This document shows positions 10,781-61,692 of a DNA stretch of 64,000 nucleotides, piece by piece. A model generated the notes under the pieces. That model was given only the letters and a program-made list of their open reading frames with translations. It did no database searches and was not told where the DNA came from. Source of the stretch: Prosopocoilus inquinatus (lineage: Eukaryota; Arthropoda; Insecta; Coleoptera; Lucanidae); the NCBI GenBank assembly GCA_036172665.1, contig CM069874.1, positions 25,379,946 to 25,443,945 on the forward strand, given 5' to 3'. The stretch's first letter is position 1, and each line of letters starts with the position of its first letter. Position numbers and translations under genes: made by a program.

Positions 10781-11359
10781 TCATGAAGGAGGGTGTCGGA
10801 ATCTACATGCTGGCCCATTCTTGCAACTTCCCGTCTGGAAGAAGTAACAGTCTACGGTTTTGCTGTTGCTGACTGTTGCCTGTGGGTGGTGGCTGCAGAC
10901 TAGGACTTCAATTCCCGTTCTGTGGAAGATGACTTCCAGCATGCTTCGAATTACTCTCCAGTCTAGTCCGTCCAATCCGCAGCCCAATTTGGGGATGGCT
11001 AACTTCATCTGATGGGTCTCTATTAGCTGTCTCCTCAGGCTATATAGGGCTCTCCACATACTTTGATAGTCAGGTTTACCGCTTGATGTCTTCTTAGTGA
11101 CTAAATAATGCACGTGGCGCCTCCGATCTGCCGTCGAATCAATGATCTGCAAGCTCTTACCTACCATGGGATGCTGTCTTCGTAGCTCCTCGATTTGGCC
11201 AAATTTCTTCCTAAACACCTGAGCGATTCCTTTGGACGTTTTCAGGTCTTCTGCTACGCAGTGAGCCAGACTGTACTCCAGTGGCACTTTAAAGAGATCT
11301 TGTTGCTTCTCCGTGGTCACTCCAAACCGTGCCTTGCTTCCTTCGGCGTGATGAGACAT
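10781..11359 (-). CDS. Retrotransposon accessory protein: TARG1-like macrodomain plus CCCH zinc finger
   Basis: A 192-residue protein from the first ATG at 11359; the frame is open for 12 more codons back to the pol stop. Residues about 24-155 match the TARG1/OARD1 macrodomain branch: SLAHCVAEDLKTSKGIAQVF (substrate-binding strand and loop), KKFG, then YLVTKK...KP.Y, then IPKLGCGLDGLDW. The TKK lysine and the GCGLD aspartate align with the catalytic Lys/Asp pair of human TARG1 (K84, D125). The C terminus is a CCCH finger (C-X7-C-X5-C-X3-H, residues 171-189), typical of RNA-binding fingers. The predicted role is removal of ADP-ribose from protein or nucleic acid, with an RNA-binding tail. It occupies the usual env position; no signal peptide or membrane segment is present. 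The domain call is strong; the biological role is inferred. Confidence 0.88.
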   Translation of the reverse strand: MSHHAEGSKARFGVTTEKQQDLFKVPLEYSLAHCVAEDLKTSKGIAQVFRKKFGQIEELRRQHPMVGKSLQIIDSTADRRRHVHYLVTKKTSSGKPDYQSMWRALYSLRRQLIETHQMKLAIPKLGCGLDGLDWRVIRSMLEVIFHRTGIEVLVCSHHPQATVSNSKTVDCYFFQTGSCKNGPACRFRHPPS

Positions 11360-11395
11360 GAAGGTTTCGAAGTTCACTTCGGAAACTTGCGCCCT

Positions 11396-14300
11396 TTATA
11401 CTGTCCCTTCATCTGCTTCTCCATGGTAAGGGGCTATCCGGTTGAAGTGGATTACTTTGGGTTTGCCATGGGGGACCTTCCTGATGCGGTAAACAACGTC
11501 GTTGATCTGTTTCGTCACTTTGTAAGGACCTTCCCAAGAGGTCTGTAATTTTGGGGAGAGGCCTCGACGTCTTTGGGGGTTATAAAGCCAGACCAGTGCT
11601 CCAGGTTGGTATCCCCCGTGTTGAGCGTTGATGTCATAGTGCTCCTTCATCCGATCGCTGGCCGTCTGTATATTGTGACGCACTTGGTTGTGGATATCAT
11701 CCATTTTCCTGCGTAATTTGCTCACGTAATCTTCGTCGGCAGAGACTTCGCCAGGCTTCACACCAAACTTCAGGTCGCAGGGCAGTCTCGGCTCTCGCCC
11801 GAATACCACTTTCGCGGGAGTCTCCCCTGTTGTCTCATGAACAGATGAGCGGTATGCCATTAGAAACAGGGGGATGTACGTGTCCCAGTCCCTCTGATGA
11901 TTGGAAATGACCTTGGACAAATGTCGGTTGATGGTTCTATTGAACCTTTCCACCATTCCGTCCGACTGTGGGTGGAGTGCAGTTGTTCTAGTTTTTCGTA
12001 CGCCGAGCAGAGTACACACGTTCTTGAACAAGGCCGATTCAAAGTTCCTTCCTTGGTCTGAATGCAGTTCCATAGGTGCACCATACCGACTGATCCATTC
12101 CCTGACAAGGACTTCCGCAATAGTGACTGCCTCTTGGTTAGGTAGGGCGTAAGCTTCAACCCACTTGCTAAAGTAGTCCATTACCACGACGATGTACTTG
12201 TTTCCACCATTCGTTTCTGGAAACGGGCCGGCTACATCGATGGCAACTCTCTCAAAAGGACTTCCAACGTTGTACTGTCTCATGGGAGCCTTACCCCGCC
12301 TGTGGGGACCGTTACTGGCTGCGCAGACTGTACACTTTCTGCACCAATCCTTCACGTCTTCCTTGCAGTTCACCCAGTAAAATCTTTCGCGCACCTTCTC
12401 CATAGTCTTCTTAACTCCCAGATGCCCTCCGGAAGTTCCATCGTGAAGTTCCCTCAGAACTTCTGGCACCCTATTCTTAGGGATCAGTAACTGTGTCTTC
12501 TGTTCCATGCCTTCCTGATTCTCTATGCTTCGTCTCAGAAGACCACGATCCAACACTATGGAGTCCCACTGCGCCCAGTATGATTTTACGGACGGTGCAC
12601 ATGGTGCTACCTCTTCCCAGGTAGGCCTCGCGTCCCTGCTTTTCCATTCTAGCACTAATTTCAAATCCGGGTCGTTCTCCTGGTCTCTTCGCAGTTCTTC
12701 CCCTTGCCATTTGTCATCAACAATGGCTGTCCTCGCAGTCGTGGCTACTTTCTCGTCCAAACGACTACAGTGCTTACAGTCTTCGGCACAGGGTCTTCTC
12801 GACAGAGCATCGGCATTTCGATGGCTAGTTCCTGCCCGATGCTGAATTTCAAAATCGTACTCCTGAAGTCGTTCGATCCATCGTGCAACTTGCCCTTCTG
12901 GGTTCTTGAAACGGAGAAGCCATTTTAGAGCGGCGTGGTCGGTCCTCAGCAGGAAGCGTCTACCATACAAGTACTTGTAGAAGTGTTCTATCGTATTTAC
13001 GACGGCTAGCAATTCCCTTCTTGTGACGCAATAGTTTCGTTCCGGCTTTGATAGGACTTTACTGAAGTAGCCGATCACCTTCTCTTGCCCCTCTTGTATC
13101 TGGGAGAGTACGCCACCAATCCCAACGTTGCTAGCATCTGTGTCCACGACGAACTTGCCTTCCGGGAGAGGATAACTCAGAATAGGAGCACTAACCAAGT
13201 ACTGCTTTAGTTGTTCAAAGCCAATTTGACACTGTTGGTCCCATTCAAATGGACGACCTTCTTCAGTGAGTTTTGTCAACGGCTTAGCAATGTCTGCAAA
13301 TCCAGGAACGTAGCGCCGATAGTAAGTGCACAGGCCAAGGAAACTCCTTATTTGGTGTTTATTTCTGGGAGTTGGCCAGTCTTTCACCACCTGAATCTTC
13401 ACAGGGTCCACGGCGATTCCATTTCCATTAACAATGTGCCTCAGGTAATTCACTTCCTTCTGGAACAGGTGACACTTCTTGAGGTTAAGCTTTAGTCCAG
13501 CTCCGCGAAGCCGCTGGAACACTCCTTCCAGGTTCCTTAGGTGGTCGTCGAACGTCTTTCCCACGACAATTATGTCGTCAAGGTACACCATGCACGTTGT
13601 CCAGGACAGACCTTTCAGAACCGTCTCCATTAACCTCTCGAATGTCGCTGGGGCATTACATAATCCGAATGGCATTACTGTGAACTGCCACAGACCCATA
13701 CCAATGGAAAACGCCGTCTTTTCTCGATCTTCGGGCGCCAGCTCCACTTGCCAATATCCACTCTTTAAGTCCAAAGTTGAGAAGATCTTTGAGCCGGCCA
13801 GGGTGTCCAGGGTATCATCAATCCGTGGCAGGGGATAGCTGTCTTTCTTGGTGACATTATTGAGTAACCGGTAGTCTACACAGAACCTGGTGGACCCATC
13901 CTTCTTCTTCACAAGTACTACTGGTGACGCCCACGGGCTGCTTGATGGTTCTATTACATTATCCTTTTCCATCTCGCGAATAATGCGTTCCGCTTCCTCA
14001 CGCTTCGCCAACGGTAATCGCCTTGGAGCTTGACGGATAGGTCTTTCTTCTCCAGTCTCTATTTTGTGTTTCACGACATCAGTTCTTCCCTTGGATCCAT
14101 TTTCTACCTCAAATACATCTTGATAGCGGCCGATCAGATTCTTTGCTTTTGTCTTCTGGTCTGGAGTCAATTCCTGGGCTGTTGACATAAACATTTCCCA
14201 TAATTTCTTTGGGACTTTCGCTTCTGGCACGTTTGTTTCAAGTTGCCGGGAGATGGAGGACACCATGGTGCAGCTTCCCAAGATTGTTCCTTTCTTGATA

Positions 14301-15058
14301 TTGACAGAGAAACAATTGACGTTCATCAGGCGGACAGGTACTTCCTTCTTCGCCGTCAACAACATTTTCCCAACGAGGACTCCTCTTCCAATCCTTTGAT
14401 CATCAGTATTAGGTTCAACCATAATGACTTGCCCATCTTGAAAAACACCGTCCAGTTTTGCGTCGACGATAACCTCAGTCCTGCTGGGTAATACAACGTC
14501 TTCAGCGAGGACTACTCGAGCAGCCACGTCCCCTCGTTGATGTAGAACCAACTCCTCATTATTGAACGCCATCACGCCACGCTTTAAGTCCAATTGGAAC
14601 CCGTGGGCACACATGACGTCCATGCCCAAAATTGCCTCGTCCTCTATATCTGCCACCAGTGCACGGTGTTTTATTGGAGTTGAACCAATGGTGATGATAA
14701 CCTCTACTTCACCGTGGACAGTTGCTGATGTTCCAGTTGCAGTTTTCAGTTTCCACTTGGTCGGCTCGGTGCGTCCAGATGACTTAATGACGTAGGGTCT
14801 TAGGATGGTCTTCGTCGCACCCGTATCCAACAACATGGTGTGAGGAATGTCATCAATGGTGACATCCACGAAGACACTGCTGGTTAACTGCCGTAGGGAT
14901 ATTACTTGTTTGGCTTTCGTCTTTGGGGGCCTTTGAATACGGGTCGACGTTTGCCCCTCTGCACCGACCCGGCTTAGTTTAACTGTGGCTTCCTTGGATC
15001 CTGTCTGGGCTTTGGACATCGCCTGCGAACATGTCCTTCCTCCTGGCAATTCCAACAC
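11396..15058 (-). CDS. pol: Pol polyprotein (protease, RT, RNase H, integrase)
   Basis: The open frame is 1220 codons. Its apparent start (15058) is a GTG inside gag, so translation must enter by -1 frameshift at 14977-14983, just before residue 28. Domains in order: aspartic protease with DTGA at 78-81; reverse transcriptase about 350-540 with LDLKSGYWQ (429-437) and catalytic YLDD (492-495); RNase H about 630-755 with D639, E682, D707 and D750; integrase zinc-binding H872, H879, C906, C909; integrase core D941, D1001, E1037 (D-35-E spacing); and a C-terminal GPY module (WEGPY, 1175-1179). No chromodomain is seen. All catalytic residues are present and the frame is uninterrupted, so it could be active. 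It ends in TAA, 36 bp before the ATG of the macrodomain ORF, in the same frame. Confidence 0.97.
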   Translation of the reverse strand: MLELPGGRTCSQAMSKAQTGSKEATVKLSRVGAEGQTSTRIQRPPKTKAKQVISLRQLTSSVFVDVTIDDIPHTMLLDTGATKTILRPYVIKSSGRTEPTKWKLKTATGTSATVHGEVEVIITIGSTPIKHRALVADIEDEAILGMDVMCAHGFQLDLKRGVMAFNNEELVLHQRGDVAARVVLAEDVVLPSRTEVIVDAKLDGVFQDGQVIMVEPNTDDQRIGRGVLVGKMLLTAKKEVPVRLMNVNCFSVNIKKGTILGSCTMVSSISRQLETNVPEAKVPKKLWEMFMSTAQELTPDQKTKAKNLIGRYQDVFEVENGSKGRTDVVKHKIETGEERPIRQAPRRLPLAKREEAERIIREMEKDNVIEPSSSPWASPVVLVKKKDGSTRFCVDYRLLNNVTKKDSYPLPRIDDTLDTLAGSKIFSTLDLKSGYWQVELAPEDREKTAFSIGMGLWQFTVMPFGLCNAPATFERLMETVLKGLSWTTCMVYLDDIIVVGKTFDDHLRNLEGVFQRLRGAGLKLNLKKCHLFQKEVNYLRHIVNGNGIAVDPVKIQVVKDWPTPRNKHQIRSFLGLCTYYRRYVPGFADIAKPLTKLTEEGRPFEWDQQCQIGFEQLKQYLVSAPILSYPLPEGKFVVDTDASNVGIGGVLSQIQEGQEKVIGYFSKVLSKPERNYCVTRRELLAVVNTIEHFYKYLYGRRFLLRTDHAALKWLLRFKNPEGQVARWIERLQEYDFEIQHRAGTSHRNADALSRRPCAEDCKHCSRLDEKVATTARTAIVDDKWQGEELRRDQENDPDLKLVLEWKSRDARPTWEEVAPCAPSVKSYWAQWDSIVLDRGLLRRSIENQEGMEQKTQLLIPKNRVPEVLRELHDGTSGGHLGVKKTMEKVRERFYWVNCKEDVKDWCRKCTVCAASNGPHRRGKAPMRQYNVGSPFERVAIDVAGPFPETNGGNKYIVVVMDYFSKWVEAYALPNQEAVTIAEVLVREWISRYGAPMELHSDQGRNFESALFKNVCTLLGVRKTRTTALHPQSDGMVERFNRTINRHLSKVISNHQRDWDTYIPLFLMAYRSSVHETTGETPAKVVFGREPRLPCDLKFGVKPGEVSADEDYVSKLRRKMDDIHNQVRHNIQTASDRMKEHYDINAQHGGYQPGALVWLYNPQRRRGLSPKLQTSWEGPYKVTKQINDVVYRIRKVPHGKPKVIHFNRIAPYHGEADEGTV

Positions 15059-16470
15059 ACCAGCGGCTTCTTCTGCTTGAAGACCTGTTCCACAATGCGG
15101 CGAACATCCTCGGCGGTGGTATACTCCCTGGGTCGCTCCTTTATAGCAGATCCCACCTTGGCGTTAGCGGATTCTTCCTCTTCTTCCTCTTGGAAGTCCA
15201 TAGCCGCTCGCACCTTGACATGCCCTCTTGAGACTCGTCTCGCCGCTTCAAATTCCAAGGCATAAGCCAATGCGTTCTTGGACGGGTTCGGATGGGTCAT
15301 TCTCAATGCCTGCTGGTTGTCTGGGTCACGGATTCCATCTATGAAGGTCTGCACCGTCAAACATTTGAGGAATTCAACAGGAGCTGTGGGATATGCCAAC
15401 TGGGCCAGACGCGCAACGTCTGCTTCGAATTCCTGAAGAGTTTCTCCGGATTTCTGACAGCGATTCCTCAACTGCGCATGGTATACCTCGGTCAGATGGG
15501 CCTGTCCGTAACGCATTTCCATCCTATTCACCAGCTTGTCGAAGTCTTCTTGTTCCTCTGGCGGCATCGTCTGTAGCACATCGATGGCGTCCCCTCTCAA
15601 GGCCACAATTAACGAAGTGGCTTTTTCGCTGGCCGTCCATCTGTTCGCCTTTGCTGCTGCTTCGAACTGTTTGAAGTAGTTGGGCCAAGAAGACTTTCCA
15701 TCGAACGTTGGTGGTTTTATTTTCAGTTTAGAATTTTCTGCTGGTCCTTCCACAATTCGGGTTTCATTATTTTCTAGTACTTCTATTGGTGGCTGATCCC
15801 CGAACACTCGCAACCCCGCCATGATTTGTTCCAGATTTTTGATTTTGTTATCCTGCTGGAATATTATTTCTTCCACATTTTCTTGCAGGTTTCTTGTTTC
15901 TTCCGATATTTTTACCACTAGTTTATCTTCGAGTCCCTTCGTCTGTTCTAGAAATTCACCCTTCAAATTTCCGGACTGTTCTAGAAGTTTCTCGTCGAAA
16001 TTTCTGGATTGCTCTAGAAATTTCTCGTCTAAGTCTCTAGATTGTTCCAACAATTTATTCTGTAATTTATCGAAATTTCCAGATTGTTCTAGAAGCTTCT
16101 CCGCTAAATTTCTGGATTGTTCTCGAAGTTCGTCCTTGAATTTGCCAGATTGTTCTCGAAGTTCTTCCTTGAAATTTCCAGATTGTTCTAGAAGCTTTTT
16201 CTCTAAATTTCCAGACTGTTCTTGAAACATCTCGTCCAAATTTCTGGATTGTTCTCGAAATTCATCCTTCAAGATTTTATTAAAATCGACGGGACCACAC
16301 GAAATTTCGAAAAGGAACGTCTCTGGATCTTCACCAGCTGTCAACAAATCGGATCGGAGACGCTGTTGAAGTGCGCCTTTCAAACCACAGGTTTCTAACT
16401 CTCGTTCTTCCAATTCGGTTTTTAATTCGGCCACTTTTAAGTCTTTCAACAACACTTTTCTCGTAGCCAT
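14974..16470 (-). CDS. gag: Gag polyprotein with SAP motif, hendecad coiled coil and CCHC knuckle
   Basis: A 498-residue protein starting at ATG 16470. Residues about 8-42 (DLKVAELKTELEERELE followed by GLKGALQQRL) fit a SAP DNA-binding motif. Residues 71-184 are about ten 11-residue repeats of the form LLEQSGNF-K/D-E-E/K, predicted to be a long hendecad coiled coil. Residues about 252-390 (FDGKSSWPNYFKQFE onward) are the retrotransposon Gag capsid domain. The C terminus carries one zinc knuckle, C-X2-C-X4-H-X4-C (472-485). It should assemble the virus-like particle and package RNA. An N-terminal SAP motif is unusual for Gag and may direct particles or the integration complex to chromatin; that is inference. 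The repeats are visible in the DNA as a 33-bp tandem array at 15920-16260. Confidence 0.95.
   Translation of the reverse strand: MATRKVLLKDLKVAELKTELEERELETCGLKGALQQRLRSDLLTAGEDPETFLFEISCGPVDFNKILKDEFREQSRNLDEMFQEQSGNLEKKLLEQSGNFKEELREQSGKFKDELREQSRNLAEKLLEQSGNFDKLQNKLLEQSRDLDEKFLEQSRNFDEKLLEQSGNLKGEFLEQTKGLEDKLVVKISEETRNLQENVEEIIFQQDNKIKNLEQIMAGLRVFGDQPPIEVLENNETRIVEGPAENSKLKIKPPTFDGKSSWPNYFKQFEAAAKANRWTASEKATSLIVALRGDAIDVLQTMPPEEQEDFDKLVNRMEMRYGQAHLTEVYHAQLRNRCQKSGETLQEFEADVARLAQLAYPTAPVEFLKCLTVQTFIDGIRDPDNQQALRMTHPNPSKNALAYALEFEAARRVSRGHVKVRAAMDFQEEEEEESANAKVGSAIKERPREYTTAEDVRRIVEQVFKQKKPLVCWNCQEEGHVRRRCPKPRQDPRKPQLN
14977..14983 (-). promoter_or_regulatory. -1 ribosomal frameshift heptamer GTTAAAC
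   Basis: In element orientation gag ends CAG TTA AAC TAA. The heptamer G-TTA-AAC directly precedes the gag stop. Pol is in the -1 frame, and slipping here gives ...QLN then LSRVG, continuing straight into Pol. G UUA AAC is a proven -1 slippery sequence in arteriviruses and fits the X-XXY-YYZ rule with a relaxed first base. A downstream structure was not examined. Confidence 0.8.
15920..16260 (-). repeat. 33-bp tandem repeat encoding the Gag hendecads
   Basis: About ten degenerate copies of a 33-bp unit, recognisable on the + strand by CCAGATTGTTCTAGAAG and CTGGATTGTTCTCGAA. Each encodes an 11-residue LLEQSGNF-type unit in Gag. One copy carries an extra three codons (around residues 134-137). 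Confidence 0.85.
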
Positions 16471-18631: not shown

Positions 18632-19668
18632 TTTTCCCAACTTTCGTCAACTTTCTGCCGGTCACTGTATATAAGTTGAATAAGAAAAATCAGTTTCGAA
18701 AATTTCTTGATTCCAAAGTGGTAGCGCCGATGGCGTGTTGGCAGCCCCTATTGCTACGCCACTGCATCATTCTGTTGAAATAATATAAAACTTCAACATA
18801 AGACTTGTTCTATTTTTGTGAATCCGGAGCTGTATCAAGTCAACATGTTGACTCAATTGCGACCAGAGGTTGATGAGTAGAAGTAACAAAAAGAAAATTA
18901 AGAAAAATCAGGTATCAACAATTGGAAAGAAAGAATGTAGAAGGGAAATGTGTTTATAATTAACTCAAGTTTTATATCAACGTTCTATATGTTAAGGTTG
19001 ATAGGTTGTTTTATTACATAATTTATATAATCATTTTTATGTGCACGTTAAATTATTCTTCTTTATATTTACTGCTAACTACTCATCGTGTCATAGTTTT
19101 ATTTAATTTATTGTTGTTTCAATATTTAATGCTAATTTGTTTCTTAAATATTGTACATTCATGTCATAGGTACCTATTTTACGAAAAAAATTTATCAGAT
19201 TATAATGCGGTCCTGTCTGTGTTATACCAGCAATGATTTTTTTTTACATGCCCAGACTCTACTATTAAAGGTAATTGCACTTAGTACAAACAATTAACAT
19301 GTAAGTTAATTACATGATGACGTGTATGTAGGTGCATTTTGATATATTATGTTTGTTTTAGTAAAATGCTAAAAATATGAAATCGATAAATAAAATTATC
19401 TGACTGCGCGATAAACACATTATGCAAATGAGTAAAGCGTTGTTTAAATGGTAATAAAGACATTCATAACGAAATATTAACAATTATAAAAATCAGGTTT
19501 ACTACCGGCTTCACAATTCATCCTGGGGACAATAACTCTTCCCAACAGACGGCCTTGTGACTGGAGCATACCACGGCTTAAATGTTACATTTTCAAAGTC
19601 AACAACTCGACGAAATTAATCAACAATATACGCCGCCGAAAAAAACTGGCCCTTAGGTGTGGTCGCTT

Positions 19669-19675
19669 TATAAAA
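19669..19675 (+). promoter_or_regulatory. TATA box of the cuticular protein gene
   Basis: TATAAAA lies 76 bp upstream of the chosen ATG. A TTTTAGTTT initiator-like site near 19695-19703 is about 28 bp downstream. That predicts a short 5' UTR of about 45 bp and excludes the upstream ATG at 19688 from the transcript. Confidence 0.7.
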
Positions 19676-19744
19676 TCGCCTGCATACATGCAAATTTTAG
19701 TTTTGCGAGTACTGGCAAACCAGCAGCGCTTAACCATAATCAAA

Positions 19745-20491
19745 ATGAAGTTCTTCGTCGCTTTTCTCGCCGTCACCGTCGCTGTAGTGCAAGCTAAGCC
19801 CTCGGGAGTTCCTGCTCCTGTCATTCCCGTCGCCTTGGCCGCCCCCATATCCACCCAATTCGTCGCTCAGGACTCTATAGGACAATACACCTACGGATAT
19901 TCCAACCCCCAATCGGCCAAGACTGAGACGAGATCGCTCGACGGAATCACTCGAGGAGCTTACAATTATGTTGACGGTTCGGGAAAACTGCAATCAGTTG
20001 AATATTCTTCTGATGCAGTTCATGGTTTCCGGGTAGCCGCAAGCAACCTTCCCGTGGCACCCGCAGTTCCAGCACCTCCGGCTTTAATTGCACCTGAACC
20101 CGTGCAGGATACTCCGGAAGTTGTTGAAGCTAGAGCTAAGCACCTGGTGGCGCTCAAGGAAGCAGAAGCACGAGCAGCTGAAATACCTGCCGCCGTTGTT
20201 ACCAAGACGGAAACCATCTTGCCTTCTACCCTTGGTGTAGTTTCCGCCTACATTCCTTCATCAGCTAACCTGGTGGGCGTGAGCGCCCCAATTTTATCTT
20301 ACAGTTACGGAATTCCAGGGGCTTCCGTCGCGTATTCGGCCTTCGGCGCTCCTGCGATTGCTTCATACACCACTCAAATTGCAACCCCCGTGTTGGCGGG
20401 GTTGGCGCTCGGAGAAGCCCCAACCAGCTCAGATGCAGTGACCGTCGAAGCTAAGTCAGCTCCAGTCGAAACCAAAGAGAAAAGCGACTAG
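19745..20491 (+). CDS. Cuticular protein with chitin-binding Rebers-Riddiford domain
   Basis: A 248-residue secreted structural protein of the exoskeleton. The start is ATG 19745, not 19688: it has a CAAAATG context, lies downstream of the predicted transcription start, and gives a clean signal peptide (MKFFVAFLAVTVAVVQA, cleavage after A17). A Rebers-Riddiford chitin-binding domain follows: IGQYTYGYSNPQSAKTETR, then G-x-Y-N-Y-V-D-G-S-G-K, then V-E-Y-S-S-D-A-x-H-G-F-R-V with ASNLP (about residues 40-105). The C-terminal half is Ala/Pro/Val-rich, with a charged helix (VVEARAKHLVALKEAEARAA), typical of cuticle proteins. The gene is intronless here and complete. Polyadenylation signals are at 20548 and 20558. 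The exact RR subclass is uncertain. Confidence 0.92.
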   Translation: MKFFVAFLAVTVAVVQAKPSGVPAPVIPVALAAPISTQFVAQDSIGQYTYGYSNPQSAKTETRSLDGITRGAYNYVDGSGKLQSVEYSSDAVHGFRVAASNLPVAPAVPAPPALIAPEPVQDTPEVVEARAKHLVALKEAEARAAEIPAAVVTKTETILPSTLGVVSAYIPSSANLVGVSAPILSYSYGIPGASVAYSAFGAPAIASYTTQIATPVLAGLALGEAPTSSDAVTVEAKSAPVETKEKSD

Positions 20492-26489: not shown

Positions 26490-26779
26490 CTGGATACACA
26501 TTCAGGCCTTTAGGCAGCAATCATTACAGACACACGTAATGTTTTCCAACGGACAAAAAATGTTTTATTGAAATAGTAGTTCTTCGTTGTGTCGATAATA
26601 ATTTAGGCAAAATATAATAGCTGTGTTAATATAGTCTCAAATTCGTCACGAAAACATCCCCGCCCCCTTATGCTTGGATTCAATCAGTTGAACCAACGAG
26701 ATTTACGTTGTTTTATTGATTTGCGCTTTAAAACGCTGTAACAACGACTTTAATAGCGTTTTCTAGTATAATATGAACA

Positions 26780-27075
26780 GATAAAATAGGGACATCTTAC
26801 TATCGCTTTTTGACCTGACATTGCAGTAGGATAGACAAATTAAAGCGGGATTTGCTCCTAATAAGTCCCCCGTGCAAGGTGGCCATGCTTATCGCTATTT
26901 TATCTGTTCATCACTCTTACATCGCAATTGCGAATAAATTGGACAAGTCGTTTTTTTTTGCAGTGGGAATGTCGAGCTACGTCTCTGCTGAAGAAGTCCC
27001 AAGCAAGGCTGAAACAGCTGTACAGTGGCTGCTCGAGGTTTTCACTGCAATCAAAAACGATTTGCACAAAATTTT
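26780..27075 (+). mobile_element. Hammerhead-ribozyme element, copy 1
   Basis: It is flanked by the 13-bp direct repeat TATAATATGAACA (26767-26779 and 27076-27088), which overlaps the usual ATGAACA start. After the 5' arm (to about 26890) the inverted arm is mostly deleted. Then come a short AT-rich linker, the ribozyme (26974-27034) and the standard 3' end GATTTGCACAAAATTTTT. No protein is encoded. Confidence 0.85.
26974..27034 (+). ncRNA. Hammerhead ribozyme type I (slightly degenerate)
   Basis: Core CTGAAGA (26988-26994), stem II AGTCC/AGGCT with loop CAAGCA (one A-C mismatch), GAAA (27011-27014), palindromic stem III CAGCTG, then UA before the predicted cleavage site at 27022/27023. Stem I GTCTCTG/CAGTGGC has one mismatch. 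An outer helix GAGC/GCTC is kept. All core bases are conserved. Confidence 0.7.
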
Positions 27076-27248
27076 TATAATATGAACAATATAATATATA
27101 TTAAATTAAATATTTTTTAAATATATGAATATGTCGATGAATATACATAGATATTTTTAAGTTATGGATATCCGATATTAAAACATGATATCGCGCACCC
27201 CTAGTTATAAAAACAAAAAATAAATGCTCTGTGTCTCTGTTCCAATAA

Positions 27249-29903: not shown

Positions 29904-29914
29904 TTAAACCTTGA

Positions 29915-30169
29915 TGAGCAGATAAAACAGCGACATCTTACGATCGCTTTTTGACCTGATATTGCAGTAGGATAGACAAATTGAAGCAGATTTGCTCCTA
30001 TTAAGTCCCCCATGCAAGACGGCCATGCTTGCTGTCAAAGCATAATGAAAGTTTTAAGAAATTTTGTTACAAATCGTTTTCAATTGAAGCCCCAAGCAGG
30101 GCTGAAACAGCTGTACAGAGGCTGCTCGAGGTTTTCACCGCAATCAAAAACGATTTGTAACAAAATTTC
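29915..30169 (+). mobile_element. Hammerhead-ribozyme element, copy 2
   Basis: It is 255 bp, flanked by a perfect 11-bp duplication TTAAACCTTGA (29904-29914 and 30170-30180). The 5' end is TGAGCAGATAAAACAG, followed by the long arm and an inverted linker. A ribozyme remnant at 30085-30130 keeps stem II and GAAACAGCTGTACAGAGG, but the 5' half of its core reads TTGAAGC instead of CTGAAGA. The 3' end is GATTTGTAACAAAATTTC. Confidence 0.9.
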
Positions 30170-30309
30170 TTAAACCTTGACAATACAATTGAAGAAATAT
30201 TTTCTAGTAAAAGGAATTATTTCTTCGTATTCCTATGTCAAATACATGAACAGGATATTTTTTCAAAATTATTACATTTTTATATGCATCACCTATTATA
30301 CGTATTATA

Positions 30310-31247
30310 CGGGGTCTCCCAAGTTGAGTGACCTATTACAAGTTTTCGAGGAAGGGAACACACAAACATTCTGAAAATTAATTCACTGCCCTAGGATGAA
30401 GTGATCTTTCAGACTAAAATACTTTCATTTTCATATCACTGCCGGTTATACCGGAAATCGCCCTTCACTTTCTTATTTTAAATGGAATGCTATACTTTTT
30501 ACTGCAAATTATGATTCTACAAGTTATTCCACGTAAACATTGTTAAGCCTTGCCTATACTTAAAGGTAACTGTTTTTCAAATATCTTCGAATTTCTGAAA
30601 AAAAAAATTATTTAGGTGGCCTTTCATTTAAGAGAATGTATTTACGACACTTCCAAATGTTAAGATACAAGTTGCATGTCGTTTGAGAGAATAAGGTTGA
30701 GCCTTTTAAATCGTATCCTAGTTATCATTGAAAAATTCACAGGCTGGTCAAAATATGGTGTGGAATCTTCTTCTGTTCAACTGTCCAAAACTCAGTTTTC
30801 GTAAATAGAATGCCCGGTATATTTTTGCATCATGAGATGTAGAATTAAATTCTACATCGATTAGTAGTAGCACTCCCAATACCCATTCCCAATAGTTTTC
30901 TAGTTATCAATTATTGTTTATCATTATTATTTTGGTAAAATTATGGTAATTTTTCACAATAAGTGTCGACAAAACAAAAATATTTACCGAGTTACATTTA
31001 AGTATAGGAAAGCTTTAACAATTTTTGCTTAAAATAATGTGTAGAGTTGGAATTTGCAACATAAAGTATAGCATTCCCTTTGAAGCAAGAAAGTTAATGC
31101 CGACTTCCGGTATAACCGGAAGTGATATATAAGTGAAAATATTTTAGTCTGAAAGATCACTTCCTTCTAGGGCAGTCTATTAATTTTCAGAATGTTTGTA
31201 TGTTCCTTTACCCGAAAACTTTTAATGGGCCAACTTGGGAGACCCTG
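30310..31247. mobile_element. Long inverted-repeat element, CAGGGTCTCCC ends
   Basis: Left end CGGGGTCTCCCAAGTTG, right end CAACTTGGGAGACCCTG, each next to TATA. The arms are about 220 bp and contain a matching block with TTCAGACTAAAAT and the palindromic CCGGTTATACCGG. The centre resembles part of the element at 58086-59799. No ORF. Confidence 0.75.
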
Positions 31248-37555: not shown

Positions 37556-38612
37556 AAATAATAATAATAATTTATTGGTCCTAAGCGCACTGTCATAATA
37601 AAACGAGCATAGTGATTAGACAAGGCAAATTTAGGTACAATAATATAAAATAATATAAATAATATACATAGTTGTAAGTATTGTTACCTTCGTCGATTAA
37701 AGCCTTAAAATTACAATGAAATTCAGAAAACTTCAGTTGTTCGTATTACATAAATTTATGAATTCTTCCACTGAATATAATGTTTTATTTAAAAGAAAAG
37801 ATTTGAGCTTACGCTTAAAAACAGCTAAAATGGAACATGTTTCAATATCCAAGGCAATAAATTAAAATATTGAAGACCTATGTAATTGCGAATAACATTT
37901 AGCCCGCTGAAGGTAGGCCGAAATCTTTTACTACTACGTATGCACATAGAATGTGTTTATAGATCTCATAAATTTTGAATTTTTTTGAAAAATATGAACA
38001 CACAGTTCAAATAAAAAATTGTGGATACCCATCATGATACTGATAATTTTTTTTTTGAACGACAAGAACATCGTGCATCAAAGCCGATAAAATAAACGTC
38101 TGTCTGACGAATTAATTCTTGATTTTGACCTACTCGATTCATATTTGGATATAATTCCAACTTTACACATTAAAATAATTAAATTGAAAACGCCCATTAT
38201 GCATACCTTTGAGACCTCCCTCTCCACTCATTCAAATACGATTTCAATCCAACTCATTTCTGTCCACCTATTTGAAGAATTCTTTTAATTTCATATGAGA
38301 TCACGGATTGAATAAGACCAAAGTAAGACAGTCTAAGAACATTTGGGTTTACGAGTTCGTATAATCGTTTTTAAACGCAATACACTGTGCTTATTTTGAC
38401 ACACAAGCAATCAATGTGCTTGTTCCACGTAATCTTTCATGTAAATACCTAAGAATTTTGTATTATGCGCTTGTTACTCGTTTTACCATTTAGTCTTATT
38501 AATAAACTGCTATTGATGTTATTTTTGGTTACAAAGTTAATGAAATTTGTCTTGAACGGATTCAGAACCAAAGCATCGCTAAAACATCGTACATTTCATT
38601 AACAATACTGTT

Positions 38613-38963
38613 AGAAAAAAATTTGTTGCAAATCGTTTTTGATTGCAGTGAAAACCTCGAGCAGACTCTATACAGATATTTTAATTCGTTTTTGGTTTGC
38701 AGTGGAAATTTTGAGCTACGTTTCTGCTGGAGAAGCCCCAAACAGCGCTGAAACAGTTGTACAGAGGCCGCACGAGGTTTTCACTGCAATCAAGAACGAT
38801 TTGCAGCAAAATTTTTTAAAACTTTCATTACGCTTTGACAGCAAGCATGGCCGCCTTGCATAGGGTGACTTATTATGTAGCAAACCCGCTTCAATTGGTC
38901 TATCCTACTGCAATGTCAAGTCAGAAAGCGATCGTAGGATGTTACTGTTTTATCTATTCATCG
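38613..38963 (-). mobile_element. Hammerhead-ribozyme element, copy 3 (in LINE)
   Basis: It is inserted in the LINE with an 8-bp duplication ATACTGTT/ATATTGTT (38605-38612 and 38964-38971). Read on the minus strand it begins GATGAATAGATAAAACAG and ends in GATTTGCAACAAATTTTTTT. A 3' ribozyme half lies just before that end (about 38625-38680). A second, plus-strand ribozyme copy at 38713-38770 has a mutated core (CTGGAGA for CTGAAGA). Confidence 0.8.
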
Positions 38964-39496
38964 ATATTGTTTGAGTTTCAAATTAACGTTTCTAGATCAC
39001 TAGCGGCAGTTAGCGTAGTTGAATCATCTGCATATAAAATAAATTTACTAGGTGTTATATTTTTAATAAAGATAATGAATAACAACGGGCCTAACAATGA
39101 TCCCTGTGAAACTCCGGTGTTATCTGCATGTATCGAGATACAAAATAACAATCGTCCTTCAACGTAACGTTTACATAATGGCGATTGAACGGGATAGGTA
39201 CTCGGGCTGATTATGTCTTAAAGATGACAACGTGTTACTGATTTGTACGTATTGAGTGCGATTATTCAAGTATTCCCTTAACCAAGCGAGTATACGAATG
39301 TCAATGTTACTGAGTTTATTTAATAAAAGAAATGTTTTTTTCCGAAATCGTGTTGGTATGGAGCGAACAAATTATTTTTTTCCAACAAGTTTACTAGTCT
39401 ATCACTAAAAGCGGATTCAAATATTTTTGCAATGGAACACTGTAAACCGATAGATCGATAATTGGCGCACTTAGACGTTTCACCTTTATTTTTATA

Positions 39497-40761
39497 AATT
39501 TTGTTGCAAATCGTTTTTGATTGCAGTGAAAACCTCGAGTAGCCTCTGTACAGCTGTTTGAGCCCTGTTTGGGGCTTCGTCAGCAGAGACGTAGCTCTTC
39601 CTGTTATGGATTTCGATCCACAACTCGATTGATTTTAAGTTATCAAAAATAAAACCCACACGTAACTTAGTTACTTTATTAAAATAAGCAACATTACGAA
39701 AAGGAATGAATTTTACAAGAATTGACAACTGATCATTAATCAGAACACATGTAGAATATCTAATTACAAAAGGTAACAGCGATACCGACACGTAGTGTTC
39801 CTAAGTTACAAGATTAATGACAATGGAAAATACTAAATTTGAGTTTATAAAGCATCGAACACTGGCGGGGGTTCTGGTAAACAACTACCCCGCGAACAAG
39901 CGAAGCGTCGGTCGCGGTTCTATGTAAACATTACCAAATAAGGACATAGAATCTAATGCTGGCAATGTTTGATTAGGCTACGGAAACGAAATGCAAAATA
40001 AACGAAACGATACATCTTCGAAATATCGAAGCAATAGCTGAAAACAATTTACAGAGGAAACGTGAGGTTCCTCGGCAAACAAACCAAGGAGGTCTGTGTG
40101 CATTTGGCACTACGAACAAGTTGATTCCTGATCTTAAGGTTTGAAAGCAAATGATATTATATTTAACCAGCCAAATTTCGTGGCGAGAAAGGAACAAATA
40201 GTTACTTTTGACACCTTAAAATCAGCACCTTTTCCTGCAATAAAATACATTTAAAATATTAGTCGGGTTGCACTGAGGGTGGCCCGGATATGATGCAATT
40301 CGATTTATCTACTTAAATTGCAGAAATAAGACGAACAGCTAAGCTTAATACTAATTAATACGCGCACAACACAAAACTATTTGTTCAATTGTGGCGATGT
40401 TATAACATTCCCACTGCAAACTAACAACGACTTGTCCAATTTATTCGCAGTTGCGATGTAATAGTGATGAACAGATAAAACAGCGACATCCTACGATCGC
40501 TTTTTGACCTGACATTGCAGTAGGATAGACAAATTGAAGCGGATTTGCTATCTAATAGGTCCCCCATGCAAGGTTTTCACTGCAATCAAAAATGATTTGC
40601 AACAAAAATTTTTAAAACTTTCATTATGCTTTGACAGCAAGCATGACCGCCTTGCATGCGGGACTTATTAGGTAGCAATCTGCTTCAATTTGTCTATCCT
40701 ACTGCAATGTCAGGTCAAAAAGCGATCGTAGGATGTCGCTGTTTTATCTGTTCATCACTAT
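39497..40761 (-). mobile_element. Hammerhead-ribozyme element, copy 4, long form (in LINE)
   Basis: It is 1265 bp, inserted in the LINE with a perfect 12-bp duplication TTTATTTTTATA (39485-39496 and 40762-40773). Minus-strand start TAGTGATGAACAGATAAAAC, end GATTTGCAACAAAATT. A ribozyme relic sits at 39537-39597. Two inverted arm copies (about 40470-40580 and 40630-40755) enclose the usual linker. The remaining ~800 bp (39600-40400) is unique in this window and has no convincing ORF. Confidence 0.85.
39537..39597 (-). ncRNA. Hammerhead ribozyme relic
   Basis: It keeps GAGC-TAC-GTCTCTG, the core CTGACGA, stem II AGCCC/GGGCT, palindrome CAGCTG and CAGAGGC. The second core strand reads CAAA instead of GAAA; loss of the invariant G12 should abolish cleavage. 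Confidence 0.6.
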
Positions 40762-41440
40762 TTTATTTTTATAGATGGGAATTATTTTTGACCGTTTCAG
40801 TAAATCGGGAAAATGTCCTTCGAACGACAAATTAATTAAGTATGATAGTGGTTCCGATATGTGATCATTAACTTTGCTTAAAACAAAACCAGGAGTGTTA
40901 TCCGGCCCACTCGATTTTTGGGAGGAAAATCTATTAATAATTTTTGAAATTTCAGCACCTGTTATGGGATATAAAAAAGTTGAAGACATATTTGTTTATT
41001 TCCGGGGGATGGCATTTGACTTGTTTTGGATATGTCTAAAAATGCTTCTCTGAGAGCATTGGCAATTTGATGAGGATCTTTAAGGATAGTTTCGTTGACG
41101 TACAACTCCTTATGTATGTTGAACTTATCTTATAAGAGTAGAGTTGATTATTTGCGTTAACATGATTTCGACAAGTTACTGAATGCGGTAATCTATTTAT
41201 TGTAGTAATTCTTATTTGATTCAGTTAATTTTTATTTGTATAGTTTCCGGATAAAAGCTAATATGTGCTTCAAAGTATTAATCTTATTATATTTGTGCAT
41301 GTCACTTAGTTCTTTTAACAAATTATATAGACCCGACAGATATCTACAATTAATTAGGCAGGAGATTGTTATAGTTTCTTTTTCTCCATATTTTGAGTGA
41401 CCCTGTGTGTATGTAAATGAACCCTGGGAAGTGCACATTT

Positions 41441-44315: not shown

Positions 44316-45940
44316 CAGTCGGGGACAAAATTGTGGGTACGGAAGAGAGTTCTATCGTATTTGAAAAAGATATATACACAGAATTAAAATATAAACAAAA
44401 ATAATCAACTAAACAGTTTATTGACAACTAAATATAATATTCTAGCAAAAAAGTGAAAAGATAAACGAAAAAACAAGTACTTTATTATAATAACTTAATA
44501 ATTTCTGAAATAAGAGGTGGACTTAATTCTGGGTACAATTTCTTTTGTAAATTTGTATTACATAAATTTCACCAGAATTAATATTTAATATGACCTCCCT
44601 TGGCTGCAATGACTGTTGTAAGTCGCCGTGGTATGCTGTCAATTAAATTTGTTATTATTTCTGCTGAAATTTCTTCACAAGCAGCGATCAGTTTGTTAAA
44701 GTAAGATGTGGCACTTGTTACTCCTTCTCGTGAAATTTTGGCGTCTAAATAAGCCCACAAGTGTTCAATTGGGTTTAGATCCGGACTTTGAGGCGGCCAC
44801 TGAAGGACTTAAATGTCATTTTCTTGGAAATAATTCTTAGCAACTCGCGAAGTATGCTTGGGATCGTTATCCTGTTGAAAAATAAAGTCAAGGTCCATCT
44901 TTTCAAGCGAAGGATACAAATTTTCTTCCAAAATTTGTACGTATGATATTCTTGTCATCATACCTTCTATTCTAGCTAAATTGCCTACACCGCTTTTACT
45001 AAAACAACCCCAAACAAGAACATTGCCGCCTCCATGTTTAACTGTAGCTTCTACTATTTTAGAACTTAAGGCTTCTCTTACTCGCCTCCATACTCTCCCT
45101 CTTCGTTTTGACCCAAAAAGTTTAAATTTACTTTCATCCGACCACACCACTTTTTCCCAATAGGCTGGGGGTTTATTTACATGTTGTTTTGCAAATGCTA
45201 AGCATTTTTTCTTATTTCGTTCACTAATGAATGGTTTCTTTCTTTTTAAAAAACTTTGAAGGCCGGCGTCTTTAATCCTTCTTTTAATTGTTTTAGTAGA
45301 AATGTTTATACTGACGCTTTCCCTCATTTGGCGAGCACTTACACTAGGATTTTTTCTCACTTCCCGCACAATTCGGGCATCGTCTCTTGGTGTGGATTTT
45401 CTTTTTCGCCCTCGACCCGCGATATTTTCAGTACTATTAGTGGCTTCACATTTTTTACAATTACGAACAACAGCGTTTTTTGATACTTTATACATTTTTG
45501 CTAATTGTCCGTAACTTATACCCACTTTTCGGTCTTCGACAATACGTTTACCAATTTCCCAAGCGATTTCTTTTTTGGGAGCCATGAGAAATTTTTAGTT
45601 TAAAAACTAACTTTCTTAGGACATTTCACTATTTATTATTAACTCAATACAAATTCCGTTTTTCAGATTAATCCACTAATATTGTGTGCACGCTAGAATA
45701 GTTCTGATAAAACTAAAGCTGCATCGTTGTACCCATAATTTTGTCCAACTAAAAACATCTATAAAATAAACAAAACAAACCCCACCATTAAGGAATTATT
45801 CATTTATGAAGTAATGCCCAATAAATATTATTTGCACAGTTTTATTGTCGATTTATAAATGCTGCAGGTATAAAGGGATAAACGTTTGCGGAAAGTAACC
45901 AGCAATATAAATGTCGTACCCACAATTTCGTCCCCGACTG
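44316..45940 (-). mobile_element. Tc1-like DNA transposon with IR/DR ends
   Basis: It is 1625 bp between TA dinucleotides (44314-44315 and 45941-45942). The 25-bp outer inverted repeats start CAGTCGGGGACAAAATTGTG and differ at one base. Inner direct repeats of the same motif lie about 200 bp inside each end (GGACTTAATTCTGGGTAC at 44519-44536; inverse of GGACAAAATTATGGGTAC at 45729-45746), the IR/DR layout of some Tc1-like elements. It encodes one transposase, with a single in-frame stop. Confidence 0.95.
44578..45585 (-). pseudogene. Tc1-like DD34E transposase with one premature stop
   Basis: The reading frame runs from ATG 45585 to the stop at 44578 (335 codons) and is broken only by a TAA at 44809-44811. 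The N terminus has paired helix-turn-helix DNA-binding domains (GISYGQLAKMYKVSKNAV; SARQMRESVSINISTKTIKR) with a basic GRGRKRK between them. Catalytic residues are in VVWSDESKF (first D), FQQDNDPKHTS (second D) and, after the stop, SPDLNPIEHLW (E). The 258-residue product therefore lacks the catalytic glutamate. Everything else looks intact, so inactivation is recent. It lies in what would be the intron downstream of beta-subunit exon 1. Confidence 0.95.
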
Positions 45941-47548: not shown

Positions 47549-47679
47549 TTTTAAAAAAAATTGTTGCAAATCGTTTTTGATTGCAGTGAAAACCTCGAGG
47601 AGCCTCTATACAACTGTTTCAGACCTATTTGGTCAGAAAGCGATCATAGGATGTCGCTGTTTTATCTATTCACCACTAT
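47549..47679 (-). mobile_element. Hammerhead-ribozyme element, copy 5
   Basis: It is 131 bp with flanks AAAATCAATTG (47538-47548) and AAAATCCAATTG (47680-47691), a duplication with one indel. On the minus strand it starts TAGTGGTGAATAGATAAAAC and ends GATTTGCAACAATTTTTTT. An internal deletion joins the 5' arm to the 3' ribozyme half (GGTCTGAAACAGTTGTATAG). Confidence 0.85.
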
Positions 47680-47691
47680 AAAATCCAATTG

Positions 47692-50600: not shown

Positions 50601-50846
50601 AGAATATTATTCCTAGTTAATAAATTTCGGGCAGTAGAAAACACTTAAATTAAACTAATACCTTAAATGTCATTGTAGTTATCAAATGTAAATTCAAAAG
50701 AACTCGCATGAATTTTTACGACATCCTTTCAACAAAATAATAATTTATTTAAAAAGCTCTATTGAATTTTTTGTTGTCTATTAATTCGATCCTTTTATTT
50801 TGAATTGTTTTAAACATGCTTATTTTATAACAAACGTTAATTTGTA
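47692..50846. other. AT-rich noncoding stretch
   Basis: No supported gene. GCGTTCAATCCCCG near 49168 resembles a tRNA-like B box, but no tRNA fold could be drawn. Around 49430-49640 is a less AT-rich block with only short overlapping frames on both strands. Confidence 0.4.
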
Positions 50847-50906
50847 ATGAACAGATAAAAAGTGACATCTTCCGATCGCTTTTTGACCTGACATTGCAAC
50901 AAAATT
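50847..50906 (+). mobile_element. Hammerhead-element minimal derivative, copy 6 (60 bp)
   Basis: Only the two ends of the family are left: ATGAACAGATAAAA plus part of the 5' arm, joined to TTGCAACAAAATT. A perfect 11-bp target duplication GTTAATTTGTA flanks it (50836-50846 and 50907-50917). The ribozyme is deleted. Confidence 0.85.
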
Positions 50907-59799: not shown

Positions 59800-60060
59800 T
59801 ATAACTTTTTTTTATCTACTTTTGGGATTAGTTAGATGTCACATTTAATTCATTTAACAAGTTACAATTTCTTAAATTAGATATGTGTATGTTAAAAAAA
59901 AACATTTATAGGAAAATATAATATTTGCTTATTTAAAAAAATATATTTCTTGTCTACGGAGCACTGTACGGCAGACACCTGTACCTAATATTAAATAACA
60001 GGTTTTAAATAGGTAATTAGTGGCTTAAGTTTGATATGACGTGGTGTGAATTTCAATTCA

Positions 60061-60290
60061 ATTAGTCATTAGTCACCAGTCGAAATAATGATTAATGACT
60101 AATTTAGTCATTAGTCGTGAGATACGTGACTAATAACTAAATTAACCCTTAGTCTTGACTGGTTGACATCAATGACTAAATTAGTCATTAGTCACCAGTC
60201 AAGACTAAAGACTAATTTAGTCATTAGTCACCAGTCAAGACTAATTACTAATTTATTAGTATGTCTTGACATACATCATTAATTTGACTA
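60061..60290. repeat. ATTAGTCATTAGTCACCAGTC repeat cluster
   Basis: Three direct copies of a unit built on TTTAGTCATTAGTCACCAGT are interleaved with inverted TTAGTCTTGACTGG words. It is about 230 bp with no coding content, and possibly the fossil end of an unknown transposon. Confidence 0.7.
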
Positions 60291-60573
60291 AAAGATGCAC
60301 ATCTCTGCTAGCAGCTAGCACTCGTGAGTCATCTATTTCTATAACCACTTGAAATCTAATCAGTACAAGTTTAACACCAATCGTCTTCTCAGTTAATCGG
60401 CCACCTTTTAATTATAAATCTTAATCAAGAGAGTTATTAAAGTCTTTATTATTATAAACAGATAAAATAGCGACATCTTACTATCGCTTTTTGACCTGAC
60501 ATTGCAGTAGGGTAGACAAATTGAAGCGGGATTTGCTCCTAATAAGTTCCTAATAAGTTCCCCATGCAAGGCG

Positions 60574-60622
60574 GTCTCTGCTGAAGAAGCCCCAAGCAGG
60601 GCTGAAACAGCTGTCCAGAGGC
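60574..60622 (+). ncRNA. Hammerhead ribozyme type I, complete core (unit 1)
   Basis: Stem I GTCTCTG/CAGAGGC (7 bp), core CTGAAGA (60581-60587), stem II AGCCC/GGGCT with loop CAAGCA, GAAA (60604-60607), short palindromic stem III CAGCTG and the favoured GUC cleavage triplet, cut predicted after 60615. The outer GAGC/GCTC helix is missing because the upstream arm joins here. Confidence 0.82.
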
Positions 60623-60879
60623 TGCTCGAGGTTCTCGCTGCAATCAAGAACGATTTGCACAAAAATTTTTCTAAAATCTTTCATTATGCTTTGACAGCAA
60701 GCATGGCCGCCTTGCATGGGGAACTTATTAGGAGCAAATCCCGCTTCAATTTGTCTACCCTACTGCAATGTCAGGTCAAAAAGCGACAGTAAGATGTCGC
60801 TATTTTATCTGTTCATCACTCTTACATCGCAAATGCGAATAAATTAGGCAAGTCGTTTTTATTTGCAGCGGGAATGTCG

Positions 60880-60940
60880 AGCTACGTCTCTGCTGAAGAA
60901 GCCCCAAGCAGGGCTGAAACAGCTGTCCAGAGGCTGCTCG
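60880..60940 (+). ncRNA. Hammerhead ribozyme type I, complete (unit 2)
   Basis: Stem I in two helices, GAGC/GCTC (60880-60883, 60937-60940) and GTCTCTG/CAGAGGC (60887-60893, 60929-60935), with a TAC/T internal loop. Then core CTGAAGA (60894-60900), stem II AGCCC/GGGCT with loop CAAGCA (901-916), GAAA (917-920), stem III CAGCTG (921-926) and GUC with the cut predicted after 60928. Every invariant core base is present. The tiny self-complementary stem III is the form known from Penelope-like and retrozyme hammerheads that act as dimers. Confidence 0.88.
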
Positions 60941-61229
60941 AGGTTCTCGCTGCAATCAAGAACGATTTGCACAAAAATTTTTCTAAAATCTTTTATTATT
61001 ATAATTTTTAATCGACCATAATAAAATATCCCAAATTACAAAAATTTAATATAACAGTAATGTTGATGGGAATTGAACTCGAGTCCTCTTGAATATGAAA
61101 CTCAAAACGAAGAATGCTCGCCCGCTCCAAAATGTTCGTTCCTAGGAATCCACGATAAGTCAGAAAGGACTTCATTTTGAAGAACGATGTGTTTAAAGAT
61201 GGTGCGCTAATATTTTCAGTTGCTTATGT

Positions 61230-61652
61230 TTATAGATACATAACAAGGTACAGGCCGAGGCAAAACATGGCAATCACACCGGATAGGTCCCTCCGTGTAG
61301 CCATAGCAATAATCGAATTACAAAGGTTCCTTGAACACGAATCTCTGTACGTATGAGTATTCCCCGTCCGGGAATTTACACGTCGCAATCTGATTCCACA
61401 ACCTCTGCGTACCTCATAATACGGTCCAGTCTTCTCAATTTCCACTGTGCACGCATCACGGTTGTCGTCACAATCTCGGCCTTTTACATTGAATGCCACT
61501 GGATCCCCGCAAGGTGAATTCTTCATCCAATCGCGTAGGCCCGATTTACGGCAGCTGTAACATTTTAATGCTTGCGTATCAGACAAGAAAATTGCTAGCC
61601 ACACAATGACACAGAAAAGTATCGCTTTACGGAAAACGCTGCGAGATGACAT
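61230..61652 (-). CDS. Ly6/uPAR-domain GPI-anchored protein
   Basis: 140 residues from ATG 61652; the frame opens further upstream only with a TTG, and the ATG directly precedes the signal peptide. Residues about 8-28 (FRKAILFCVIVWLAIFLSDTQA) are a signal peptide. LKCYSCRKSG opens a three-finger Ly6 domain with cysteines in CYSC, SPCGDP, RDCDD, DACTVE, RRGCG and the closing CSRNLCNS signature; eight cysteines, so one disulphide of the ten-cysteine form is absent. The C terminus (LSGVIAMFCLGLYLVMYL) is a hydrophobic GPI-attachment tail. Insect relatives act in septate junctions or ion-channel trafficking; which role applies here is unknown. AATAAA on the minus strand at about 60992 is a possible polyadenylation site. 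Confidence 0.85.
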   Translation of the reverse strand: MSSRSVFRKAILFCVIVWLAIFLSDTQALKCYSCRKSGLRDWMKNSPCGDPVAFNVKGRDCDDNRDACTVEIEKTGPYYEVRRGCGIRLRRVNSRTGNTHTYRDSCSRNLCNSIIAMATRRDLSGVIAMFCLGLYLVMYL

Positions 61653-61692
61653 TTCGTAGAACTTGACGTACGAATTCGTTAATAATTGCAAT

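Follow-up and report, generated by a model that had tools for sequence, protein, structure and literature searches.

Head-to-head hammerhead insertions with two fixed ends in an insect genomic window, consistent with two-ended target-primed integration of a non-LTR retrozyme

The closest described systems to the element reported here are the non-LTR retrozymes of animals, whose hosts include insects and crustaceans (Cervera and de la Peña 2020, PMC7229834). As published, these are tandem repeats (PMC7229834, PMC7761336). Plant LTR retrozymes (PMC4918200) are likewise small, non-autonomous hammerhead retroelements for which a circular RNA model has been put forward, as we consider here, but they carry type III hammerheads, LTRs, a PBS, a PPT and 4-bp target-site duplications (TSDs) (PMC7229834), whereas the element here has type I hammerheads and TSDs of 11–13 bp. 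The animal repeats are reported to hold no conserved motif that would help to deduce the helper element (PMC7761336). Penelope-like elements have been called a strong helper candidate, based on common features and co-existence (PMC7229834), and either Penelope-like elements or LINEs have been named as possible helpers (PMC8969392, PMC11722881). In Anolis, the purified Penelope protein is described as cutting and extending both target strands, using two internal RNA starts and preferring AT-rich targets; the two strands show no difference in start sites, which are separated by a tail of 30–40 bp (PMC11167929). Rotifer Penelope copies often have an inverted pseudo-LTR and, where target duplications are present, these are 8–10 bp (PMC3846280).

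A sequence-only reading of a 64-kb stretch of DNA, which we call the window, had singled out one retrozyme-like element at 60458–60991 and proposed that it moved by an RNA-type mechanism. Our analysis supports that proposal, and more strongly through six other insertions in the window than through the first. Like the animal non-LTR retrozymes characterized in PMC7229834, the family has a type I hammerhead with a conserved core and the usual stem III (albeit below threshold in Rfam), a non-coding unit within about 170–400 nt and under 50% GC, TSDs longer than 4 bp (11–13 bp in five of seven insertions) and no LTR-like layout in any of the seven. Whereas the published elements are described as tandem repeats, the copies in this window appear as individual composites, joined head to head between two fixed ends; the main text of PMC7229834 contains none of the words inverted, inversion, twin, head-to-head or head to head. 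Throughout the family, copies are inverted and have two fixed ends, and the element first noticed is one of several copies; the sequence-only reading had overlooked both points. We consider it probable that the family is a non-autonomous non-LTR retrozyme that integrates through target-primed reverse transcription at both target ends, beginning at two fixed internal sites on a circular or multimeric RNA and likely by means of a Penelope-like enzyme.

Seven insertions on one plan

A perfect target duplication of 13 bp flanks the insertion at 60458–60991 (c8), as had been claimed for it; an equally high score was reached by 0.1% of 4000 random pairings. Its antisense segment has one additional copy of an 11-nt repeat (array 60537–60561), and this inverted arm matches the sense sequence at 98% over 97 nt, with a further 27-nt stretch past the 11-nt duplication. 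Where aligned, the two arms are identical at 105 of 106 positions, compared with 89–94% identity to the other insertions. Within the sense segment, a direct repeat of 114 nt (60574–60687 and 60886–60999, 99% identical) carries both hammerhead cores. The unit defined by the two predicted cleavage points measures 312 nt, one less than the spacing of 313 nt given previously; it has 44% GC, and no open reading frame (ORF) of at least 110 aa overlaps it. Expressed in unit coordinates, c8 consists of an antisense run from about 201 to 92 and a sense run from 271 to 72 beyond one turn.

When the window was searched with the element and its copies (BLAST and nhmmer, limits in unit coordinates), eight clear matches to the unit were found, including c8, and these make up seven insertions (Table 1). 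Three additional BLAST matches of 29–39 nt (1633–1671, 20411–20439 and 31000–31038; E 0.005–0.026) were left out, as they are absent from the nhmmer results (E up to 0.1). A 22-base family pattern has no exact match in viral contigs or prokaryote genome contigs, nor does the element match phage records.

Table 1. Positions of the family members, their parts and two other annotated features of the window. Runs labeled A (antisense, from site A) and B (sense, to site B) are in unit coordinates.
Feature	Position	Strand	Details
Insect cuticle-protein domain	19490–20488		Pfam scan
Ty3/Gypsy-like pol ORF	11396–15163		identified by eye
c1	26773–27083	+	A 203 to 84, B 182 to 62; TSD TATAATATGAAC(A), overlaps A end
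c2	29912–30178	+	A 203 to ~22–34, B 283 to 65; TSD CTTAAACCTTGA, overlaps both ends
c3	38611–38962	-	A 202 to 235 via cleavage point, B 302 to 59; no significant TSD
c4+c5	39490–40762	-	A 208 to ~14–17; B 95 to 262, ~807-bp later insertion, 264 to 61
c6	47549–47690	-	A ~205–213 to 159, B ~289–295 to 61; weak gapped TSD
c7	50844–50906	+	A 204 to 149, sense ~8–12 nt ending near unit 52; TSD GTTAATTTGTA
c8 left target-site duplication	60445–60457	.	TTTATTATTATAA
c8 antisense segment (A cDNA)	60458–60574	-	inverted copy of 60707–60814
c8 sense segment (B cDNA)	60574–60991	+	418 nt; exceeds one turn of the unit
Hammerhead 1 core	60581–60615	+	hybrid: inverted arm gives outer half of stem I
312-nt unit	60616–60927	+	between the two predicted cleavage points; position 1 = 60616
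Site B	60667–60687	+	unit 52–72; sense end; second copy at 60979–60999
Site A	60812–60823	+	unit 197–208; antisense start in 7/7 insertions
Hammerhead 2	60848–60972	+	core 60893–60927; native long stem I (38 pairs), stem II (5 pairs)
c8 right target-site duplication	60992–61004	.	

All seven insertions have the same architecture, antisense sequence from site A followed by sense sequence to site B, clearly in six and most weakly in c7; this much is read directly from the copies themselves. In ungapped fits, the A limits of c1, c2, c3, c4+c5, c6, c7 and c8 fall at 201, 203, 202, 205, 205, 197 and 198, and the B limits, in the same order, at 54, 53, 55, 53, 44, 52 and 72. For c7 the ungapped A fit is poor and a gapped fit starts at 204, and the B end of c6, at 44 ungapped, lies at 61 when gaps are allowed. 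Were each end free to use either site, the pairing of A with B in all the insertions would have a probability of (1/2)^7 = 0.8%, or 1.6% without c7. Between these ends the copies vary. The antisense part ranges from about 55 to 280 nt, and sense sequence exceeds one unit in one insertion of the seven, c8.

The split copy c4+c5 bears on the rule as well. We read it as a single insertion that was split later, because its two parts have a common 12-bp TSD (TTTATTTTTATA, at 39485–39496 and 40762–40773) and abut in unit coordinates (262/264). Treating c4 as a truncated non-inverted copy, and c5 as a copy with the wrong end, was dropped given that common duplication. Although it looks broken, then, c4+c5 still follows the A/B rule. 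The approximately 807 bp that interrupt it at unit 262/264 occupy 39598–40404, and a short near-palindrome spans their right junction.

The internal junctions, at which the antisense and sense parts meet, were compared by script. The pair of unit positions joined differs in all seven insertions, with 0–3 tied positions and 0–7 filler bases, and because no two pairs agree, the copies look like independent events rather than copies of one inverted master. Comparison of the two arms within an insertion, made only for overlaps of at least 40 nt, adds two further cases to c8: the overlap within c5 is identical at 109 of 113 positions, marginally over its best match elsewhere (43/45, in c1), and that within c3, at 57/67, is no closer than to other copies.

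At the outer ends, clear and perfect TSDs of 11–13 bp are present in five of the seven insertions (c1, c2, c4+c5, c7 and c8), each equaled by 0.1–0.25% of 4000 random pairings. For c3 and c6, the best candidates are not significant without gaps (0.64 and 0.28) and borderline with them (0.066 and 0.040). In c1, c2 and c4+c5, the TSD overlaps the element end by a few bases, as expected from microhomology. The clear TSDs are 87% A+T (52 of 60 bases) versus 66% for the window, a value reached in 0.17% of 20000 random draws.

Hammerhead motifs and predicted folding

The two type I hammerhead cores reported for c8 are both found by pattern matching, in direct orientation and at the positions given in Table 1. 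Both have CTGAAGA, a 5-bp stem II, GAAA and a GUC triplet, and a short, self-complementary stem III (A-U, C-G, loop AGCU), in agreement with the earlier description, and they predict cuts at 60615/60616 and 60927/60928. The pattern CTGANGA..GAAAC..GTC, which is blind to the GUA variants of other copies, occurs twice in the window, where 0.10 occurrences are expected, and two were reached in 1 of 100 shuffles. In the Rfam check that the sequence-only reading had proposed, no match is obtained at the gathering threshold; a permissive search places Hammerhead_HH9 weakly over each motif, in one case at 19.9 bits (E 0.034) and in the other at 16.3 bits (E 0.49), both below the gathering score of 52 for that model.

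The description of both hammerheads as intact holds for their cores, but not for stem I of hammerhead 1. This hammerhead lost its own 5' half of stem I at the inversion junction, where the direct repeat starts (60574); further out, bases of the inverted arm pair instead, so that stem I is 10 bp long and uninterrupted. Within c8, only hammerhead 2 retains the long stem I native to the element. Among the other copies, the ribozyme of c1 has an intact core and a GUA triplet, those of c3 and c4 have a change at a conserved core position, those of c2 and c6 lack the 5' half, and in c7 the ribozyme is absent. Six insertions hold the triplet at the cleavage point: five of them have GUA, in each of their six crossings, and c8 has GUC. 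A GUA triplet is cleavable.

It had also been suggested that the inverted arm gives the monomer a strong hairpin. This is not so, as the left arm (60458–60574) lies upstream of the cut at 60615/60616 and outside the 312-nt unit. The monomer is nonetheless predicted to fold strongly (z -8.7), dominated by the long stem I. At 25 °C, the computed energy of the catalytic monomer is -44.3 kcal/mol versus -53.9 kcal/mol for the best hairpin, leaving it 9.6 kcal/mol less stable, and that of a double hammerhead is -105.9 kcal/mol versus -107.8 kcal/mol for two hairpins. These predicted energies favor dimeric cleavage and would make simple self-cutting uncertain. Dimeric cleavage has been reported for amphibian hammerheads and suggested for Penelope hammerheads (PMC7229834, PMC7761336). 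Most invertebrate retrozyme hammerheads with a similar stem III are, however, reported to cut well as monomers (PMC7229834), which counts against the need for a dimer. Covariation in the long stem does not exceed that of shuffled controls: two pairs are changed on both sides, and 119 of 500 shuffles equal that. A scan of the element for pol III boxes gave best matches with two to four mismatches, which are unconvincing.

Template RNA and routes of integration

The segments also carry information on the RNA from which they were copied. Of the 12 tested (all except c5B, c6A, c7B and c8A), eight cross the predicted cleavage point, in six of the seven insertions and in every case without a gap there; the other four do not cross. 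Linear self-cleaved monomers end at the cleavage point, and the crossing templates were therefore not such monomers. The template RNA would then have been either circular, or multimeric and uncleaved, and we infer the circle over the multimer. In the B segments, reverse transcription appears to begin near unit 52–72 and to run back through position 1 into 312. In the predicted fold of the circle, the unpaired fraction is 0.70 at site A and 0.42 at site B, against an average of 0.34.

It is possible, though on balance doubtful, that the template was instead a long tandem transcript of a satellite-like locus, integration being otherwise as we propose. Read-through of the cleavage point and synthesis over more than one turn fit such a multimer equally well, and unprocessed RNA is described as the dominant substrate of the Anolis Penelope element (PMC11167929). 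On the other hand, the window contains no tandem array of the unit, and only c8 holds two hammerhead cores. Further, published animal retrozymes are reported to accumulate as circles, with multimeric RNAs too in the axolotl (PMC7229834).

With either template, the structure of the copies suggests how integration may proceed. Because target duplications sit at both outer ends, the duplicated bases must be present on each chromosomal 3' end, and each segment, read inward from its chromosomal end, is antisense to the RNA, such that each could be a first-strand cDNA primed by a target end. In the proposed mechanism, an endonuclease would cut AT-rich DNA with a stagger, so that each 3' end keeps the 11–13 bases that become the target duplication. 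These ends would prime on the RNA, one at site A and the second at site B. Both first-strand cDNAs would be extended until synthesis stops and then be joined head to head; the place of joining would vary and would show a few bases of microhomology or filler. An endonuclease-bearing Penelope-like element is the most likely source of the enzyme.

Several features point to such an enzyme. As in endonuclease-bearing Penelope-like elements, there is a head-to-head inverted end, short TSDs, AT-rich targets and a hammerhead, and, as in Penelope-like integration, there would be two fixed internal starts with both strands extended, which here we infer from the structure of the copies. The analogy to the Anolis element is not exact because sites A and B lie approximately 150 nt apart, not 30–40, and one of each is used per insertion. 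Moreover, unlike a Penelope-like element proper, the family has no ORF for a telomerase-like reverse transcriptase or a GIY-YIG endonuclease (none of at least 110 aa), and of the window's 22 ORFs that reach 110 aa (6 examined by Pfam, the rest by eye), none was recognized as Penelope-type. The element is thus not itself Penelope-like and is at most a passenger of an element that is.

Other routes to a head-to-head insertion were weighed against this one. First, ordinary LINE machinery with frequent twin priming could combine the normal 3' site with a random internal site. In LINE twin priming, as in LINE-1, head-to-head inversion of a 5' segment, junction microhomology and TSDs of similar size are typical, all of which resemble what we see, but inversion is occasional, affecting a minority of insertions, and the priming sites are scattered. 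Here, inversion is found in 7/7 insertions and site A, which would serve for the second priming, is as constant in position (197–205) as the first site. In addition, neither end has a long poly(A) or simple-repeat tail, although the B end is A/T-rich. We therefore regard a LINE origin as unlikely. Second, a single cDNA could prime itself by snapping back, folding on itself to produce inverted arms, and self-priming is the explanation that the authors of PMC3846280 prefer for Penelope inverted repeats. Such a process predicts mirror-image arms, whereas the unit positions at the junctions differ widely (84/182, 235/302, 159/~289), and it leaves the fixed second terminus unexplained; we give it very little weight. 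Finally, an element of the DNA transposon or foldback (MITE-like) kind, with inverted repeats and an incidental hammerhead-like sequence, would account for the 97-bp inverted arms and 13-bp duplication of c8, but is scarcely credible because each copy ends in two different sequences and its antisense part is so variable in length.

Two-ended target-primed integration with a Penelope-like enzyme thus remains our preferred reading. A stronger form of it, which we advance tentatively as quite possible, is that two-ended integration is obligate, the circular RNA having two dedicated priming sites, each kept for one strand of the cut target. If so, every insertion would be a head-to-head composite primed from one circle. 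Few insertions would then re-create a tandem hammerhead, and only those in which reverse transcription had passed a full turn, like c8, could release new circles.

Genomic setting and relevance to animal retrozymes

The window from which all copies are drawn is AT-rich, with 30–38% GC in 15 of 16 four-kb blocks and 49% in the remaining one, and its insect cuticle-protein domain led us to read the host as an arthropod. Several other features were observed in it. The Ty3/Gypsy-like element identified by eye from its ORFs is accompanied by a 204-aa ORF (10781–11395, minus strand) that is in frame and immediately after the stop of the pol ORF. This ORF encodes a macro domain near human TARG1/OARD1 (PDB 2eee and 4j5r; E 5e-28 to 8e-28), which in Pfam reaches only E 0.008 for Macro, under the cut-off, and a CPSF4-like CCCH zinc finger, which is over the Pfam cut-off. 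The combination would be an uncommon accessory gene for a retrotransposon. A Tc1-like transposase ORF with HTH_Tnp_Tc3_2 (Pfam) is found at 44809–45594 (minus strand). Closer to c8, palindromic AT-rich tandem repeats with a period of 36–38 nt occupy 60050–60255, shortly upstream, and a small ORF at 61230–61691 (minus strand), with its 3' end approximately 240 bp downstream of the insertion, resembles the Ly-6/quiver (CD59-like) family under the curated cut-offs; a protein search with it returned no homolog.

We found no description of inverted retrozyme insertions with fixed ends in the titles and abstract openings of the top matches in the open-licence literature, and the A/B pattern is absent from the relevant passages of PMC8969392 and PMC11722881. 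In the natural insertions analyzed here, reverse transcription passed through the cleavage point and, in one case, went beyond a full turn, behavior expected of a circular or multimeric template. The copies bear a fingerprint, two fixed starts, one for each target strand, and head-to-head joining, that points to Penelope-type integration. This fingerprint bears on the question of what mobilizes animal retrozymes, and it can be counted in any genome. It would tie these poorly understood elements of animals to the machinery by which Penelope-type elements move.
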